Assembly: GCA_031266435.1 (NCBI GenBank) | Contig: JAISAZ010000082.1 | Span: forward strand, 62,001 to 126,000 | DNA: 64,000 bases | Direction of reading: 5' to 3' | Source of the DNA: Accumulibacter sp. | GTDB lineage: Bacteria > Pseudomonadota > Gammaproteobacteria > Burkholderiales > Rhodocyclaceae | Shown: positions 2,905-62,430 of the stretch, in pieces | Layout of the letters: each line of letters starts with the position of its first letter | Numbering within the stretch: position 1 is the stretch's first letter | The notes under the pieces: model-generated | What the model was told of the DNA's origin: nothing | What the model saw: only the letters and a program-made list of their open reading frames with translations | The model's database searches: none | Position numbers and translations under genes: made by a program

Positions 2905-3217
2905 CCATTCCAGCGCCTGCGGAACGTTGGGCTTCACTTCGTTCAGCCCAACCTATACCTGATGGGGTTTCGTCACTGCGGCGGCAACGCCGCCGGTTAC
3001 TGATCTGATTCCTGATCCCTGATTCCTGATACCTGATTGGGCATCGCTACGCTCACCCCAACCTATACCGCCGATAGGGCACGGCACGCCGTGCCCCTAC
3101 GAAAACCATTCCAGCGCCTGCGGAACGTTGGGCATCGCTTCGCTCACCCCAACCTATACCTGATGGGGTTTCGTCACTGCGGCGGCGAAGCCGCCGGTCA
3201 CTGATCTGATTCCTGAT
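2905..3217. repeat. Direct duplication (~112 bp, offset 201 bp) containing GTTGGGC hairpin, GC-rich hairpin and CTGATYC heptads
   Basis: CCATTCCAGCGCCTGCGGAACGTTGGGC...CCAACCTATACCTGATGGGGTTTCGTCACTGCGGCGGC...GCCGCCGGT at 2905 and 3106. Confidence 0.88.
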
Positions 3218-3262
3218 TCCTGATCCCTGATACCTGATCCCTGATTCCTGATCCCTGATTCG
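3196..3262. repeat. CTGATYC heptad array overlapping 3' end of rsmA
   Basis: ctgatctgattcctgattcctgatccctgatacctgatccctgattcctgatccctgattc. Confidence 0.9.
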
Positions 3263-4030: not shown

Positions 4031-4136
4031 GATTTCTTTTCCGCTTCGTTCATGCCTTGATGCCGAGCCGCTTCACAGGTCTTGCGTACGGCAAGGCGAA
4101 GTCGACAAAGGGTGGGACGATCTGGAAAAGGAATCC
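4031..4136. repeat. Inverted-repeat-ended element, copy 1 (overlaps pdxA 3' end)
   Basis: gatttcttttccgcttcgttcatgccttgatgccgagccgc...ggtgggacgatctggaaaaggaatcc; aligns with copies at 22464, 38300, 49968, 55120. Confidence 0.88.
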
Positions 4137-22141: not shown

Positions 22142-22465
22142 ATGATGAAAGGCGGAATGGCCGGGCTGTTGAAGCAAGCCCAGGTGATGCAGGAAAACAT
22201 GAAGAAGGCGCAGGACGAACTCGCACGAATCGAAGTCGAGGGAGAGTCGGGCGCGGGCATGGTCAAGGTGACGATGACGTGTTCGCACGATGTCCGTCGC
22301 GTCGCGATCGACGAGGCCGTCATGGACGACAGGGAAATGCTCGAAGACCTCGTCGCTGCGGCGTTCAACGACGCCGTCCGCCGCGCGGAGAAGACCTCGC
22401 ACGAGCGCATGGCGGGTTTCACGGCGGGACTCAACCTGCCGCCCGGAATGAAACTCCCCTTCTGA
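22142..22465 (+). CDS. ybaB: YbaB/EbfC nucleoid-associated protein
   Basis: [24 protein letters not shown]...[12 protein letters not shown]; between dnaX and recR. Confidence 0.95.
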
Positions 22466-22567
22466 TTCCAACTCCAGTTCATCCCACCCATTGTCGACTT
22501 CGCCTTGCGGCACGCAAGACCTGTGAAGCGGCTCGGCATCAAAGCATGAACGAACTGGAAAAGGAAT
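22464..22567. repeat. Inverted-repeat-ended element, copy 2 (opposite orientation to copy 1)
   Basis: gattccaactccagttcatcccacccattgtcgacttcgcc...catcaaagcatgaacgaactggaaaaggaat; starts inside the ybaB stop codon. Confidence 0.92.
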
Positions 22568-32654: not shown

Positions 32655-33533
32655 ATGAAAGCCTTTCGCTCCGAATTCGCCCCGATACGCGAAAGGCGTG
32701 TCCACGTCCGCGTCTGGGGCAAGGATCACGCCCCGACGCTCTTCTTTTTTCATGGATGGGGCGACACGGGCGCGTCGTTCCAGTTCGTCGTCGACGCCCT
32801 GGAGCGCGACTGGCGCGTCGTCGCGCCCGACTGGCGGGGTTTCGGGGAGTCGCAATGGAACGACGGCGTTTACTACTTCCAGGACTACATCGCCGACCTC
32901 GACGCGCTGCTCGAACGCTACTCGCCGCAAACGCCCGCACGCATCGTCGGGCACAGCATGGGCGGCATCGTCGCGAGCCTCTACGCGGGAATCCGGCCCG
33001 AACGCGTATCGCACTTCGCCAACCTCGAAGGCTTCGTTTTCTGGACATCGACGCCCGAAGAAAGCCCCGAACGCTTCGAGGCGTGGCTCCGGCAGATCAG
33101 TACCCAGGGCACCGCCTTCCACCGCTACGCGCGCCGCGAGGAATTCGCCGAAAACCTGACGCGCAAGAACCCGCGCCTCACCCCCGATCGCGCCGCTTTC
33201 CTCTCTCAGCATTCCTTGCGCGTCGACGAAAAAGGCGGATTCAGCTTCGCGGCCGACCCGCGCCACCGCTGGATCACGCCGCTGCTCCACCCGCTCGAAG
33301 AAGCGAAAGCGTGCTGGCGGCGCATCACCGCTCAAACGCTCTGGATATCGGCGTCCGACTCGCCCGTCTCGAAACTCTTCACCGCGCGCCCCGAAGAATT
33401 CCGCGAGCGGATCGCGTGCTTTTCCGACGTGCGGCAGGTCCCGATCGAAGACAGCGGGCACAACATCCACCACGACCAACCCGAACGCCTCGCGCGGCTC
33501 TTCGAAGAATTTTTCACGTTTTCAGAGGAGTGA
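32655..33533 (+). CDS. Alpha/beta-fold hydrolase
   Basis: FFFHGWGDTGASFQ, VVAPDWRGFGESQW, IVGHSMGGIVASLYAG, DSGHNIHHDQPERLA. Confidence 0.9.
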   Translation: MKAFRSEFAPIRERRVHVRVWGKDHAPTLFFFHGWGDTGASFQFVVDALERDWRVVAPDWRGFGESQWNDGVYYFQDYIADLDALLERYSPQTPARIVGHSMGGIVASLYAGIRPERVSHFANLEGFVFWTSTPEESPERFEAWLRQISTQGTAFHRYARREEFAENLTRKNPRLTPDRAAFLSQHSLRVDEKGGFSFAADPRHRWITPLLHPLEEAKACWRRITAQTLWISASDSPVSKLFTARPEEFRERIACFSDVRQVPIEDSGHNIHHDQPERLARLFEEFFTFSEE

Positions 33534-33976
33534 GGACTGAGGACAGAAGACAGAGGACAGAAGACAGTGCGGCCTTCGGCCTTTGTAATCAGGGTTCAGT
33601 AGTCTGACGGAGCATCCCACGCGACATCTGAATACGGAACACAGATCACGAAGCGAACGCAGTGAGCGCTCTGTCTTCCGTCCTCTGTCCTCTGTCCTCT
33701 GATACGCGCATACGGAATCGTTGTGGCTCTCGTTCCTCAGCCCAACCTATACCGCCGCTGGGCACGGCACGCCGTGCCCCTACAATTCCACCGATCCCCG
33801 ATCCCTGATATCTGATCCCTGATGGGCACGCCGTACCCCTGCAATTCCTCTGATCCCTGATCTGTAATCTGAAGGAGTGTCCCATCCTGCAACTGAATAC
33901 TGAACACAGATCACGAAGCGAACGCAGTGAGCGCTCTATCTTCCGTCCTCTGTCCTCTGTCTTCTGTCCCCGCTTC
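33527..33976. repeat. Composite repeat block: heptad element, GTTGGGC-type and GGGCACGGC palindromes, CTGATYC heptads, second heptad element
   Basis: gaggactgaggacagaagacagaggacagaagacag...cggccttcggcctttgtaatcagg...; two copies of the tgaatac(g/t)gaacacagatcacgaagcgaacgcagtgagcgctc segment. Confidence 0.88.
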
Positions 33977-37539: not shown

Positions 37540-38301
37540 ATGATGCTGCAAGAAACTCCGGCAACCCTGTCGCAGCGAATCACGCTGGTTACCGGGGCAA
37601 GCAGCGGCATTGGCCGCGCAGTGGCTTTGGCCTTGGCCCGCGCCGGCGCTTTTGTGGTCGCCACAGGCAGGAGCCGGGAACGGCTCGCGGCGCTGGCCGA
37701 TGAACTCGCCGGACAAGGCGAGGCGCTTCCTCTCGACGTCTCCGAGCCTGACGACATCGCCCGATTCATGCGGTCGATGGGGGAACGCCACGGGCGCATC
37801 AACGCCCTGGTCGTGAATGCGGGAGTCTCTCCCGCCGTCGAGATCGACACGCTGACCGTCACCGAATACCAGTCCCTGATGGACGTCAATGTCCGTGGGG
37901 CGGTCTTTACTTTCGCGCATGCCTTGCCGCTCCTCTCTGAAGGCGCTTCGGTCGTATTCGTCGGGTCGGTCGCCGCGCGCAAGGGGCAGCCGGGGGACGC
38001 GGTCTATGCGGGGAGCAAGGGCTTCGTCCGAGCGTTTGCCCGCAGCCTGGGTACGTCGCCGGATTTGATGAAGCGCCGGATTCGGGTCAACGTGGTGTCG
38101 CCCGGCCCCATCGAAACGCCGCTCACCGAAGAGGCGACGCGCAATCCCGAAGCGAAGGTCTACGTCGAACAACTGATCCCGATGCGCCGCTGGGGGCGAG
38201 ACGCCGAAGTCGCGCAGGCCGTTCTTTTCCTGCTTTCCGAGGCTTCGAGTTTCACGACGGGCGCGGACTTGACCGTGGACGGAGGCATGTCGCACGTCTG
38301 A
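37540..38301 (+). CDS. SDR-family oxidoreductase
   Basis: LVTGASSGIGRAVALALARAGA, NALVVNAGVSP, YAGSKGFVRAFARSL, LTVDGGMSHV. Confidence 0.92.
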   Translation: MMLQETPATLSQRITLVTGASSGIGRAVALALARAGAFVVATGRSRERLAALADELAGQGEALPLDVSEPDDIARFMRSMGERHGRINALVVNAGVSPAVEIDTLTVTEYQSLMDVNVRGAVFTFAHALPLLSEGASVVFVGSVAARKGQPGDAVYAGSKGFVRAFARSLGTSPDLMKRRIRVNVVSPGPIETPLTEEATRNPEAKVYVEQLIPMRRWGRDAEVAQAVLFLLSEASSFTTGADLTVDGGMSHV

Positions 38302-38401
38302 TTCCATTTCCAGTTCATCCCTACCAACGTCGACTCGCCTTGCGGGACGCAAGTACTGTCTGCGGCTCGGCATCAAAGCATGAATGAACTGGAAAAGGAA
38401 T
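38300..38401. repeat. Inverted-repeat-ended element, copy 3
   Basis: gattccatttccagttcatccctaccaacgtcgactcgcc...catcaaagcatgaatgaactggaaaaggaat; starts inside the SDR stop codon. Confidence 0.92.
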
Positions 38402-47253: not shown

Positions 47254-48929
<1,676 letters not shown>

Positions 48930-48938
48930 CGAACGGGC

Positions 48939-48967
48939 TTGAATCCCCCGCGTATCGGCCTCATAAT
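48939..48967 (+). promoter_or_regulatory. Predicted sigma70 promoter of permuted ssrA: TTGAAT-N17-CATAAT
   Basis: Exact 17-bp spacing, placed just upstream of the acceptor piece. Confidence 0.6.
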
Positions 48968-48973
48968 GGCGGC

Positions 48974-49252
48974 ATGGTTGTAATTCCGGCCATCTGGAGT
49001 CATTCTGGACGCGGGTTCGAATCCCGCCACCTCCACCCAAGCGGCCTCGATTCGCGGACGTTTGGGTGGGGGTGTACCGGTTTCGACAGGGTGTGCAAAG
49101 GGTGAGCAGGCAACCCGTCAGGCGATCGACGTTAATGAAGCAAACCTATAAACGCCAATGATGAGCGTTTCGCACTGGCCGCCTAAGGCCGATGCCGGGG
49201 CCGCTTGAGCCTTGTCACCCAAGAAAAGCCGACGGGGACGAAAGTCCCCGTC
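48974..49252 (+). ncRNA. ssrA: tmRNA, circularly permuted (two-piece): acceptor piece to ~49038, intervening loop, coding piece from 49068, tag ANDERFALAA at 49154-49183
   Basis: T arm GCGGGTTCGAATCCCGC and CACCTCCACC acceptor strand lie upstream of GGGGGTGTACCGGTTTCGACAGGG; GCCAATGATGAGCGTTTCGCACTGGCCGCCTAA tag. Confidence 0.93.
49230..49252 (+). terminator. Stem-loop at 3' end of tmRNA coding piece
   Basis: GACGGGGACGAAAGTCCCCGTC; no clear U-run. Confidence 0.6.
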
Positions 49253-49257
49253 GTCAT

Positions 49258-49540
49258 TCTGAGGACAGGAGACAGAGGACAGAAGACAGAGCGCTCGCTA
49301 CGCTCGCTTCGTGACCAGTAATCAGTATTCAGTGGTCGCATCAGAGGACAGAGCACTCGCTGACACTCGCTTTGTGATCTGTTTTCAGTCGTCTGTTGTC
49401 GCATGATTTCCTCCCTCTGATTACAGATGCCTGACTACAAAGGCCGAAGGCCGCTCTGTCCTCTGTCTTCTCTCCTCTGTCCTCTGTCCTCTGTCCTCTG
49501 TCCTCTGTCCTCTGTCCTCTGTCCTCTGTCCTCTGTCCTC
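49258..49540. repeat. Composite heptad repeat element with 12 tandem CTCTGTC units immediately upstream of hpnC
   Basis: 49454-49537 is 12 x 7-bp, last nine units identical; left half AGGACAG units from 49260. Confidence 0.95.
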
Positions 49541-49559: not shown

Positions 49560-50480
49560 ATGCCCGTCGACCACTACGAAAACTTTCCCGTCGCGTCGTT
49601 TTTGTTGCCCAAACGCCTGCGCCGCCCGGTCGAGGCGATCTATCGCTTTGCGCGGAGCGCCGACGATATCGCCGACGAAGGCGACGCGAGTGACGCCGAA
49701 CGTCTGCGCGACCTCGCCGAGTTCGACGCCGAACTCGACCGGATCGAACGCGGCGAGGCGCCGTTGCGCGCCGACTTCCAGGCGCTCGCGCCGCTCGTCG
49801 AAGAATGGGGCCTCCCGATTCAACTCTTCCGCGACCTTCTCGACGCGTTCTCGCAGGATGTCGTGAAAAAGCGCTACGCCGATTACGACGAACTGCTCGA
49901 CTACGCGCGGCGTTCGGCCAACCCGGTCGGGCGCCTCCTGCTCCACCTCGTCGCGCGCGCGAGCGGTGATTCCTTTTCCGGTTCATTCATGCCGAGAAGA
50001 CGAGCCGTAGACAGTACTGCAGTACGACAAGGCGAGTCGACAAAGGAAGGGATGGGCCGGAAATGGAATGAAAATCTAAGCCGCTCCGACTGCATCTGCT
50101 CGTCGCTGCAACTCATCAACTTCTGGCAGGACATCGCGCTCGACTGGCGCAAGGGGCGCGTCTATATCCCGCAGGACGCGCTTTCCCGCTTTTCGATCGA
50201 CGAGCGCCAGATCGCCGAGGCGCGCTGGTCGCCCGAATGGGCCGCGCTGATGGATTTTCTCGTCGACCACGCGCGAAACCTGATGCTCGAAGGCGCGCCG
50301 CTCGTCCGGGACCTGCCGGGACGCATGGGGATCGAAATCCGTCTCACGGTGCAAGGCGGGCTACGCATTCTCGAACGCATCCGCGCGGCGCGCGGCGATA
50401 TTTTCCGCCGTCGTCCCACGCTCGGCACGCTCGACTGGTTACGCATGGGCGTTCGCGCCGTCTCGGTAGCTTTGCCATGA
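49560..50480 (+). CDS. hpnC: Squalene synthase HpnC with ~35-aa in-frame repeat-encoded insertion
   Basis: NFPVASFLLPKRLRRPVEAIYRFARSADDIADEGDA, CSSLQLINFWQDIALDW; insertion DSFSGSFMPRRRAVDSTAVRQGESTKEGMGRKWNEN. Confidence 0.93.
   Translation: MPVDHYENFPVASFLLPKRLRRPVEAIYRFARSADDIADEGDASDAERLRDLAEFDAELDRIERGEAPLRADFQALAPLVEEWGLPIQLFRDLLDAFSQDVVKKRYADYDELLDYARRSANPVGRLLLHLVARASGDSFSGSFMPRRRAVDSTAVRQGESTKEGMGRKWNENLSRSDCICSSLQLINFWQDIALDWRKGRVYIPQDALSRFSIDERQIAEARWSPEWAALMDFLVDHARNLMLEGAPLVRDLPGRMGIEIRLTVQGGLRILERIRAARGDIFRRRPTLGTLDWLRMGVRAVSVALP
49968..50070. repeat. Inverted-repeat-ended element, copy 4, inside hpnC coding sequence
   Basis: gattccttttccggttcattcatgccgagaagacgagccgtagacagtactgcagtacgacaaggcgagtcgacaaaggaagggatgggccggaaatggaat. 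Confidence 0.93.
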
Positions 50481-51310
50481 CGCCCGAAGAATACTGCCAA
50501 CGGAAAGCCCAAGCGAGCGGGTCGAGTTTCTACACGAGCTTTTTCTTTCTGCCGCCGATGCGCCGCCGCGCGATCACGGCGCTCTACGCCTACTGCCGCG
50601 AGGTCGACGATGTCGTCGACGAATCGACCGACGCGAGCGAAGCCGCGCGGCAGCTCGAAAAATGGCGCGGCGAGATCGAAGACCTCTACGCGGGCGCGCC
50701 GAAACACCCGGTGACGCGCGCGCTCCTCCCCTTCCTTTCGGAATTCCATCTCCCGAAAGCGCGTTTTCTCGAAATCATCGACGGGATGGAGATGGACCTG
50801 CGTCAGGCGCGTTACCCGGACTTCGACGCGCTCGTGCTTTACTGCTACCGCGTCGCGGGCGCCGTCGGACTGCTCGCCGTCGAAATTTTCGGCAGGCGCG
50901 AAGAGGCGACCTGCGATTACGCGTGCGCGCTGGGCACGGCGCTGCAACTGACGAACATCGTCCGCGATGTCGCCGAGGACGCCGCGCGCGGACGCATCTA
51001 CTTCCCGCTCGACGAACTCGCGCGTTTCGGCGTCTCCGAAGACGACATTCTCGCGCTGCGCGACTCCGAAGGCTTCCGTCGGCTGATGCCCTTCCAGATC
51101 GCGCGCGCCGAGCGCTTTTACGCCGAAGCGGGTCGCGCGCTTCCCGACGCCGACAGGAAGGCGCAACGCCCCGGCCTCGTCATGGCGGCGATCTACCGCG
51201 CGGTGCTCGACGAAATAAAGCGCGACCCCGCGCAAGTCCTGACGCGCCGCGTCTCGCTCTCGACGTGGAAAAAGCTCCGAACCGCGGCGCTCGCCTGGAT
51301 TCGGGGATAG
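50477..51310 (+). CDS. hpnD: Presqualene diphosphate synthase HpnD
   Basis: SSFYTSFFFLPPMRRRAITALYAYCREVDDVVDE, LGTALQLTNIVRDVAEDAARGRIYFP. Confidence 0.94.
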   Translation: MTPEEYCQRKAQASGSSFYTSFFFLPPMRRRAITALYAYCREVDDVVDESTDASEAARQLEKWRGEIEDLYAGAPKHPVTRALLPFLSEFHLPKARFLEIIDGMEMDLRQARYPDFDALVLYCYRVAGAVGLLAVEIFGRREEATCDYACALGTALQLTNIVRDVAEDAARGRIYFPLDELARFGVSEDDILALRDSEGFRRLMPFQIARAERFYAEAGRALPDADRKAQRPGLVMAAIYRAVLDEIKRDPAQVLTRRVSLSTWKKLRTAALAWIRG

Positions 51311-51312
51311 AC

Positions 51313-52653
51313 ATGCGCCTAGCCCCCCGAAACGCGCGAATCGCGGTCGTCGGCGCCGGCTGGGCCGGCCTTGCCGCCGCCGTCGAACTCTGCGCGGCGG
51401 GGATGCGCCCCGTCGTTTTCGAAGCGGCGAAGCAGATCGGTGGGCGCGCGCGCCGCGTCGAATTCCACGGCCACCCGCTCGACAACGGGCAGCACATCCT
51501 CGCGGGCGCGTACCACGAAACCCTGCGCGTGATGAAGCGCGTCGGCGCCGACCCCGAACGCCTCTTTCACCGCTTTCCGCTCGAAATCGAACACGCGCTC
51601 GCGGGTTTTCGTCTCGCCTTGCCGGAATCCGGGAATATTTTCGGGAAAACACTCAATCTCGCCAGCGCGTTCTTCATGGCGCAAGGCGCCCCGTTCGACG
51701 AAAAAATCGCGGGCGCGCGCTTCGTCCAATCGCTGAAACGCCGAGGTTTCCGTTTGTCCGAGGACTGCGCGGCGAGCGAACTCTACGACCGCAGCGGCTT
51801 GCGCGGGAAGATGCGCCGCTACTTCTGGGACCCGATCTGCCTTTCGGCGCTCAATACGCCGCCGGAAAAAGCGTCCGCGCAAATCCTCGCCAATGTCCTG
51901 CGCGACACGCTCGACGGCGCGCAGTCCGACACCGATTTTCTGCTCCCCGCCACCGACATGAGCGCGCTCTTTCCCGACGCGGCGGCGGCCTTCATCGACG
52001 CGAACGGCGGCGAACTGCGCGTTCAGCGTCGCGTCGGAGCCTTGCGGCCCGAAGCGAATGAAATTTTCATCGATGAGGAGGCTTTTGGTCACGTGATCCT
52101 CGCGGTCGCGCCGCAGCATGCGCTCACTCTCCTTGAAAGCCACGCGGAAGCGAGGGCGACCGTGGAAATCCTCTCGACCTACGCGTTTGAAACGATCGGC
52201 ACCGTCTATGCGGCGTACCCGGAAGAAATCGACCTTCCCGCGCGGATGCGCGGAATGGAATGCGACGCGCCGGGGTCGATCGGGCAATGGGTCTTCGACC
52301 GTGGGCGCCTCGACGAAAGAAATCGCGGAATCTTCAGTTTCGTCCTGAGTTCGAGCGCGAACGGCTGGGAAGAGTACGACGACGACGCGCTCGCGTCACG
52401 CCTCCACCGCGAGCTCGAAACGCTGCTCAAATGTTCTCTCCCCGCGCCTCGGTGGACGCGCGTCGTCCGCGATCGCCGCGCGACGCTCTCGTGCCGCCCG
52501 AAGCTCCAAAGACCCGCAGCGGAAACGCCGATCGCAGGGTTGCAACTCGCCGGCGATTACGTCTACGCCGACTACCCCGCGACGATCGAGAGCGCCGTCC
52601 GAAGTGGCGTCGCCGCAGCCGCGCGCGTCGTCGAAAAAGCGCGCGCGCAGTAA
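51313..52653 (+). CDS. hpnE: Hydroxysqualene dehydroxylase HpnE
   Basis: FAD motif IAVVGAGWAGLAAAVELCAAG; IGGRARRVEFHGHPLDNGQHILAGAY; C-terminal GDYVYADYPATIESAVRSG. Confidence 0.94.
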   Translation: MRLAPRNARIAVVGAGWAGLAAAVELCAAGMRPVVFEAAKQIGGRARRVEFHGHPLDNGQHILAGAYHETLRVMKRVGADPERLFHRFPLEIEHALAGFRLALPESGNIFGKTLNLASAFFMAQGAPFDEKIAGARFVQSLKRRGFRLSEDCAASELYDRSGLRGKMRRYFWDPICLSALNTPPEKASAQILANVLRDTLDGAQSDTDFLLPATDMSALFPDAAAAFIDANGGELRVQRRVGALRPEANEIFIDEEAFGHVILAVAPQHALTLLESHAEARATVEILSTYAFETIGTVYAAYPEEIDLPARMRGMECDAPGSIGQWVFDRGRLDERNRGIFSFVLSSSANGWEEYDDDALASRLHRELETLLKCSLPAPRWTRVVRDRRATLSCRPKLQRPAAETPIAGLQLAGDYVYADYPATIESAVRSGVAAAARVVEKARAQ

Positions 52654-54049: not shown

Positions 54050-54300
54050 GGCGAAGGGAGAGCCACAACGTTCCGCAGGCGCATATCAGGAGACAGGAGA
54101 CAGAGGACAGGAGACAGATCAGTCAGCGGCGGCGTTGCCACCGGAGAAGAGCTTTTTCAACCCGTCCCGGAATCGTTGGGCTTCACATTCGTTCAGCCCA
54201 ACCTATACCCTTTATCCTCCGCCCTCGGCGGTATAGGTTGGGCTGAACCTGTGAAGCCCAACGATTCCGCATACGTGGGAATGATGCTGGGTTTTGCTTC
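54050..54300. repeat. Composite GTTGGGC / GGAGACAG repeat block
   Basis: agcttgggct, tcaggagacaggagacagaggacaggagacag, cgttgggcttcacattcgttcagcccaacctata, ggcggtataggttgggctgaacctgtgaagcccaacgattccgcatac. Confidence 0.85.
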
Positions 54301-54887: not shown

Positions 54888-55121
54888 ATGAATGTCGTCT
54901 ATAACAGCAGCCAATACGCCATCCTCGCTTATCCGGTCGTGCGTGCGTTCGAACTTGTCGATAAAACAAGCCGCCGCGCGCTCTTCCTCCAGGGTTCCGT
55001 GGCAATGGGTCTGCAAGAAGCGATCAACGGGCTTTCCGACGACGAACGCACCGAAGAATCGGTCGACTCGCTACTCGACGAGTATTGCGTGGGCGCCGCC
55101 AAACCGATCGCCTTCCACTGA
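54888..55121 (+). CDS. DUF3567-like small protein
   Basis: MNVVYNSSQYAILAYP...FELVDKTSRRALFLQGSVAMGLQEAIN resembles the betaproteobacterial DUF3567 family. Confidence 0.65.
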   Translation: MNVVYNSSQYAILAYPVVRAFELVDKTSRRALFLQGSVAMGLQEAINGLSDDERTEESVDSLLDEYCVGAAKPIAFH

Positions 55122-55217
55122 TTCCATTTCCAGTTCATTCATACCGAGAAGACGAGCCGTAGGCAGTACTCGCGTCCCGCAAGGCGAGGTCGAGCACAAA
55201 CGACTTGGGAAAGAAAT
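55120..55217. repeat. Inverted-repeat-ended element, copy 5 (right end diverged)
   Basis: gattccatttccagttcattcataccgagaagacgagccgtaggcagtactcgcgtcccgcaaggcgaggtcgag...; starts inside the DUF3567-like stop codon. Confidence 0.88.
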
Positions 55218-59412: not shown

Positions 59413-59575
59413 TCAGAGGACAGAAGACAGAGGACAGAGGACAGAGCGGCCTTCGGCCTTTGTAATCAGGTATCAGTAATCAGAGGGAGGAAGTCATGCG
59501 ACAACAGACAACTGAAAACAGATCACAAAGCGAGCGCCAGCGAGCGCTCTGTCTTCTGTCCTCAGTCCTCTGTCC

Positions 59576-59597
<22 letters not shown>
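59413..59597. repeat. Composite heptad repeat element overlapping clpB 3' end
   Basis: cagaggacagaagacagaggacagaggacagagcggccttcggcctttgtaatcagg...agcgctctgtcttctgtcctcagtcctctgtcctcagtcctcagtcctctgattcctgaa. Confidence 0.92.
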
Positions 59598-62227: not shown

Positions 62228-62430
62228 ATACTGAAGACAGAGGACAGAGGACAGGGAACAGAAGACAGACGGCAGAAGATAGAAGACTGAGCGCTCGCTG
62301 GCGCTCGCTTCGTGGTCTGTTTTCAGTATTCAGAGGTCGCAGGACTTCCTCCCTCTGATTACTGATGCCTGATTACAAAGGCCGAAGGCCGCTCAGTCCT
62401 CTGTCCTCAGTCTTCTGTCCTCTGATCCCC
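62228..62430. repeat. Composite heptad repeat element overlapping Opp-type ATPase 3' end
   Basis: ctgaagacagaggacagaggacagggaacagaagacag...tacaaaggccgaaggccgctcagtcctctgtcctcagtcttctgtcctctgatc. Confidence 0.92.

Follow-up and report, generated by a model that had tools for sequence, protein, structure and literature searches.

The hpnC gene of this genome contains a copy of a mobile palindromic element, which leaves the reading frame open and adds 34 residues to the squalene synthase HpnC. The gene is located at 49560–50480 on the + strand of the window, the whole stretch of 64,000 nucleotides analysed here, and it encodes 306 residues including the insert. The assignment is based on TIGR03464, on PF00494 (210.7 bits) and on the alignment with orthologues. 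The match to TIGR03464 reaches 330 bits (cut-off 250) and consists of two stretches, the first of which ends at residue 135. The HpnC protein of the sister genome gives 340 bits against the HpnC model, compared with 330 for the insert-bearing protein. The element (TTCC...GGAA, 99 bp, + strand) occupies 49970–50068. According to the flank table, it is bounded by two identical copies of the target triplet TGA, the left copy at 49967–49969 and the right copy at 50069–50071. The net gain is 102 bp (the 99-bp element and one TGA), and it corresponds to the 34 residues Asp137–Asn170. The encoded peptide, DSFSGSFMPRRRAVDSTAVRQGESTK, holds Arg and Lys cleavage sites. The sequence-only reading had described an in-frame insert of about 35 residues at 49968–50074. 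The insert itself is found as described, and its boundaries are tighter.

The site is empty in G024, the sister genome of the same genus and the closest relative of G000 (the genome of this window). The two hpnC genes show 95% DNA identity on both sides of the insert, and the sole difference at this point is a clean 102-bp indel. The sequence is AGTGG|GGAAAAC in G024 and AGCGG TGA [TTCC...GGAA] TGA AAATC in G000. Orthologues with homologous residues at this position, or absence of the element beyond the window, had been named beforehand as refuting results; neither was observed. All of the 34 aligned orthologues, which come from many genera, are without the insert residues, and a clean gap of 34 columns is observed between Gly136 and Glu137. 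The frame of hpnC is open and free of other lesions. As the sequence-only reading had stated, hpnD and hpnE follow intact: hpnD (50477–51310, + strand; TIGR03465, 364 bits) overlaps the hpnC stop codon in ATGA at 50477, and hpnE (TIGR03467, 370 bits) is located at 51313–52653 on the + strand. Both scores are above the cut-offs.

The element belongs to a large family in this genome, and a chance similarity is thereby excluded: a covariance model built on 50 copies gives 146 matches in the 2.66-Mb G000 genome, so the element is common in the rest of the genome as well. A genome-wide BLAST search with the element gives at least 40 matches at E ≤ 3.5e-29, and the hpnC element is 86–94% identical to the other copies among the matches listed. 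The pattern of the terminal repeats gives 167 matches, versus one for the reversed control pattern. The ends are terminal inverted repeats of about 20 bp with complementary arms of 19–20 bp, TTCCWTTTCCRGTTCRTTC. For the copy census, 1.23 of the 2.66 Mb were read in regions picked around copies, and 124 full copies were examined in this draft assembly of 121 contigs; gene calls were made with a home-made, retrained dicodon caller and are approximate. Identical TNA..TNA duplications bound 75 of the 124 full-length copies. For nine copies, including that of hpnC, the orthologous site is empty in the portion of G024 examined, and several of these sites have a single unduplicated target. For example, the site GCATGA[TTCC...GGAA]TGAAAG in G000 corresponds to GCATGAAAG in G024. 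The duplicated TNA and the empty sites in G024 indicate that the copies moved by transposition with a 3-bp duplication. According to these sequence features (about 100 bp, own coding capacity absent, many copies, terminal inverted repeats, target duplication and empty sites), the family is classified as a MITE-like, non-autonomous mobile palindrome. HpnC relatives with known names assign the host, a bacterium of the Propionivibrio/Accumulibacter type, to Rhodocyclaceae. Of 121 genomes sampled from this taxonomic family, 29 contain the repeat, and beyond Rhodocyclaceae only two weak matches were found among 291 genomes of the class. Searches of plasmid, phage and E. coli collections with the element gave zero matches, and no Rfam 15 family reaches its gathering score over the element or six relatives.

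Four other copies, all announced by the sequence-only reading, were confirmed in the window. The copy at 4032–4134 (+ strand, ATT..AAT limits) is located at the junction of a pdxA-like and an rsmA-like gene, which were named by eye from the translation. A perfect target duplication is absent here, and the upstream frame takes its last residues, about 20, and its stop codon from the copy. The remaining three, which start at 22465, 38301 and 55121, are exactly on stop codons, a feature missed in the sequence-only reading. The copy at 22465–22567 (− strand) is antisense to the upstream + strand gene on whose stop codon it lies, the copy at 38301–38401 (− strand, TGA/TGA) is also antisense, and the diverged copy at 55121–55217 (+ strand) is sense. 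Other repeats were also observed in the window. A 7-bp repeat, CTGATTC, is present at 3005–3038 and 3206–3261 in the 3′-terminal part of the rsmA-like gene, and it encodes SGIRDQ-like C-terminal repeats. Tandem repeats of another 7-bp unit (CTCTGTC / CAGAGGA) are dispersed at 1430–1685, 33523–33701, 49261–49540, 54092–54118, 59414–59593 and 62233–62422, with 12.4 copies just upstream of hpnC, and they often adjoin a common unit of 63–84 bp. A tmRNA gene of the betaproteobacterial type (48925–49256) is located directly upstream of the hpnC region.

Among the 124 copies, 35 have the TNA exactly on a stop codon, and any other offset within 12 bp of the stop is represented by at most two copies. 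When only perfect duplications at TGA/TCA sites are counted, the rate per 1000 sites is 32 at stop codons, against 4.7 in intergenic DNA and 0.53 within coding sequence; the sampling around copies affects these absolute values, but it should give stop codons no advantage over the remaining sites of the regions read. The odds ratio of stop codons against other non-coding TGA/TCA sites is 7 (p = 1e-10). Most of the available TNA sites lie within coding sequence (29,090, versus 9,290 outside genes). The hpnC copy aside, the family avoids genes. Among the stop-codon copies with perfect duplications, 21 of 27 are antisense (p = 0.006). More than 50 bp downstream of the stop, the orientation is reversed, with 11 sense and two antisense copies. 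Since the rate at stop codons shows a 3.6-fold excess over the next 25 bases downstream (p = 0.002), tolerance of the 3′ end explains a part of the stop-codon excess, not all of it. The stop codon survives the insertion because the TNA triplet is duplicated. The excess may arise from target choice or from selection. We see slightly less than an even chance that the family is an undescribed mobile palindrome of Rhodocyclaceae that targets stop codons, with a preference for TGA/TAA, restoring the codon and leaving the genes intact with a 3′ hairpin; the hpnC copy would then be an exceptional landing on an out-of-frame TGA inside a gene, where a length variant kept the frame.

The length of the hpnC copy is unusual in the family. 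As many as 88 of the 124 copies add 103 or 104 bp, and only 24 are multiples of three. When each copy is considered in its six reading phases, only 5.8% combine an open frame with a length that is a multiple of three. Relative to the 103-bp type (ATT..AAT), the hpnC copy lacks a single base at each of two positions. It adds 102 bp, or 34 codons, and is stop-free in the phase used; thus the frame of hpnC is kept. According to the read-through of each intragenic call, this is the sole internal, in-frame and stop-free insertion among the 124 copies examined. A second in-frame case in a threonine dehydratase-like gene (L278:14317) was rejected because translation probably starts at a later codon, downstream of the insert. 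A copy in a biotin synthase-like gene (L270:10218) was also rejected; its length is a multiple of three, yet the frame is stopped at the edge of the element. As coding sites are sparsely hit and the case is the only one in 124 copies, the hpnC insertion is a rare survivor and no habit of the repeat family.

The sequences of the arms suggest that one strand of the element folds. In the 50-copy model the arms covary, and the column pair 19–92 consists of 34 A-U, 14 G-C and two G-U pairs. In the arms of the copies detected by the sequence profile, 237 pairs are G-U and 44 are A-C; once a single position, occupied by G-U in almost every copy, is excluded, the numbers are 122 and 44. Only these sequence-profile copies were used for the strand asymmetry. 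The covariance-model matches of other genera (43 G-U and five A-C) were set aside because the model rewards G-U on the modelled strand. Relatives in other genera (L289–L316, one copy per genome) have a common core of about 58 nt, GACGCGAAGACGAGCCGCAGACAGTGCnnnnGCACGGCAAGGCGAAGTCGACAAAGTC, and arms of about 22 nt that differ and remain complementary. The covariation, the G-U excess and the complementary arms kept across genera point to the folding of one strand, as RNA or as single-stranded DNA, within the life of the element, a step for which plain double-stranded repeats would have no need. In the case of the hpnC insert, the calculated energy of the sense RNA is −44.2 kcal/mol (z −6.4), and that of the antisense RNA is −30.4 kcal/mol. 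Translation of hpnC must unwind this hairpin, and the hairpin could impede translation or attract a nuclease.

The structure of HpnC with the insert was predicted with AlphaFold2, and the sister HpnC without the insert (272 residues) was used as the control. In both models the pLDDT of the core is mostly above 90. Residues 140–159 of the insert-bearing protein are below 50, whereas the control shows one helix (136–156) starting at the junction. Thus, the insert is modelled as a mostly disordered surface loop, which lengthens the loop before the helix. The second Asp-rich motif, the catalytic QDIALD (190–195), is at the opposite end of this helix from the insert, some 20 residues on. The best match of the model among solved structures is the HpnC structure 4hd1, with a TM score of 0.82 on the target. 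The dN/dS ratio between G000 and G024 is 0.16 for hpnD and 0.12 for hpnC, and the polarised hpnC changes on the G000 branch are nine synonymous and one nonsynonymous. These values indicate, at the sequence level, that hpnC is under purifying selection; the hpnC ratio is an average over the whole branch and would carry little information on a very recent jump. Since the insertion may be a late event on the G000 branch, the selection data support a working HpnC and do not prove it. Taken with the model, they make it likely that the insert-bearing HpnC is a working enzyme. The suggestion of the sequence-only reading that the enzyme may tolerate the insert agrees with the open frame, the intact hpnCDE genes and the disordered loop of the model; the mapping of the insert on a structure model, proposed in the same reading, places it on the surface at the start of the helix.

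We propose that a MITE-like element was transposed in trans into hpnC, that it is read through in frame, and that HpnC folds and works; this course of events is quite probable. The non-autonomous element would have entered at the TGA that straddles codons 136 and 137 (GGT|GAA), where a putative transposase supplied in trans would have cut and duplicated the 3-bp TNA target. The 99-bp element and the duplication together would provide 34 codons in a stop-free phase. Ribosomes would read the hpnC mRNA without interruption, and HpnC would thereby gain a largely disordered loop of 34 residues where the helix leading to the second Asp-rich motif begins. Folding and activity would be retained, and the gene would be kept by selection. 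It is hardly credible, and already contradicted, that the extra stretch belonged to HpnC from the start or is a chimera of the assembly. The draft state of the genome, with 121 contigs and many repeats, speaks for such a reading, but both flanks are colinear with the sister hpnC at 95% identity, the 3-bp duplication is perfect, and the stretch is missing in the 34 orthologues of many genera.

A recent harmful or inactivating insertion, with HpnC dead or weak and the decay of the gene yet to come, is unlikely, though it deserves more weight. The empty site in G024 dates the jump after the split of the two genomes, a hairpin of −44 kcal/mol lies within the coding sequence, and the single case of this type in 124 copies implies that this class of site is normally purged. 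However, the frame is open with no other lesions, hpnD and hpnE are intact, and the changes on the G000 branch are 9:1 synonymous to nonsynonymous with a dN/dS of 0.12. The insert is in an inter-helix loop with the modelled core unchanged, and chance would more readily supply a frame-shifting copy (in 100 of 124 the length is no multiple of three). The residues might also be absent from the protein, if the hairpin were processed in the mRNA (RNase III cleavage into separate halves) or skipped by translational bypass. The strong sense hairpin, which brings its two ends together at the site of insertion, is consistent with this, and the ratio of G-U to A-C in the arms is that expected if one strand folds. 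Nevertheless, an open frame with a length that is a multiple of three makes removal unneeded, and the other copies are mostly outside genes with mixed orientation to transcription. We regard processing or bypass as very improbable.

Read as a transposition, the hpnC insertion offers a clean example, and one that can be dated, of a conserved enzyme gaining a peptide from mobile DNA in a bacterium other than Rickettsia. Because the close relative keeps the empty site, the effect of the insert on the activity is directly testable with two near-identical proteins. Landing on stop codons and regenerating them is a possible answer to how about 150 copies are carried in a 2.7-Mb genome without gene breakage. 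If an enzyme preferring stop codons exists, it would represent a new kind of target choice.

The 3-bp TNA duplication is shared with the IS1031 group of the IS5 family, in which the target is TNA and the duplication is exclusively 3 bp (PMC12016507). However, the ends of IS1031 start with GAACC (PMC12016507), whereas those of the hpnC element start with TTCC. Neither IS1031-type ends nor transposases were found, as DUF4096 (PF13340) is represented by zero proteins in G000 and in the copy-rich relatives G014, G024 and G064. The surroundings of the IS5-type transposases of G000 and six relatives were scanned, and the PF01609 loci were inspected; none bears the ends of the element. A TTATTCC site at L327 appeared to be a promising partner and was rejected because it is outside that IS. 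In G014 and G064, tens of copies coexist with hardly any IS5-type transposases; the family is thus maintained there with no evident partner. As none of the IS5-type transposases searched in G000 and the six relatives has matching ends, we infer the mode of movement.

The family resembles known bacterial MITEs (Correia/NEMIS and ERIC) in that it is short, multi-copy and non-coding, with terminal inverted repeats, a target duplication and a strong RNA hairpin. It differs from them in the 3-bp TNA duplication, in the core of about 58 nt conserved between genera with arms of about 22 nt that differ yet remain complementary, and in the partner transposase, which was not found among the IS5-type enzymes. 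MITEs are known to make in-frame additions to genes, and the Rickettsia palindromic elements (RPEs) are the most striking example; of the first 44 elements of R. conorii, which belong to three of ten families, nearly half are located in ORFs (PMC10969869). Like the RPEs, the hpnC element is a short palindrome in frame in a conserved metabolic gene, where it adds a few dozen residues that are presumably tolerated on the surface (PMC10969869). Unlike the RPEs, it has 99 bp instead of about 150 bp, its host belongs to Rhodocyclaceae and not to Rickettsia, and the great majority of its copies lie on stop codons or elsewhere outside coding sequence. The analogy with RPEs drawn in the sequence-only reading thus holds for the outcome and fails for frequent in-frame insertion, with one clear internal case in 124 copies. 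The hpnC element acts like an RPE and appears to belong to another family. The hpnC event belongs to an already-known phenomenon; what is new is the family, with its missing partner, its conserved core and covarying arms, and its excess on stop codons.
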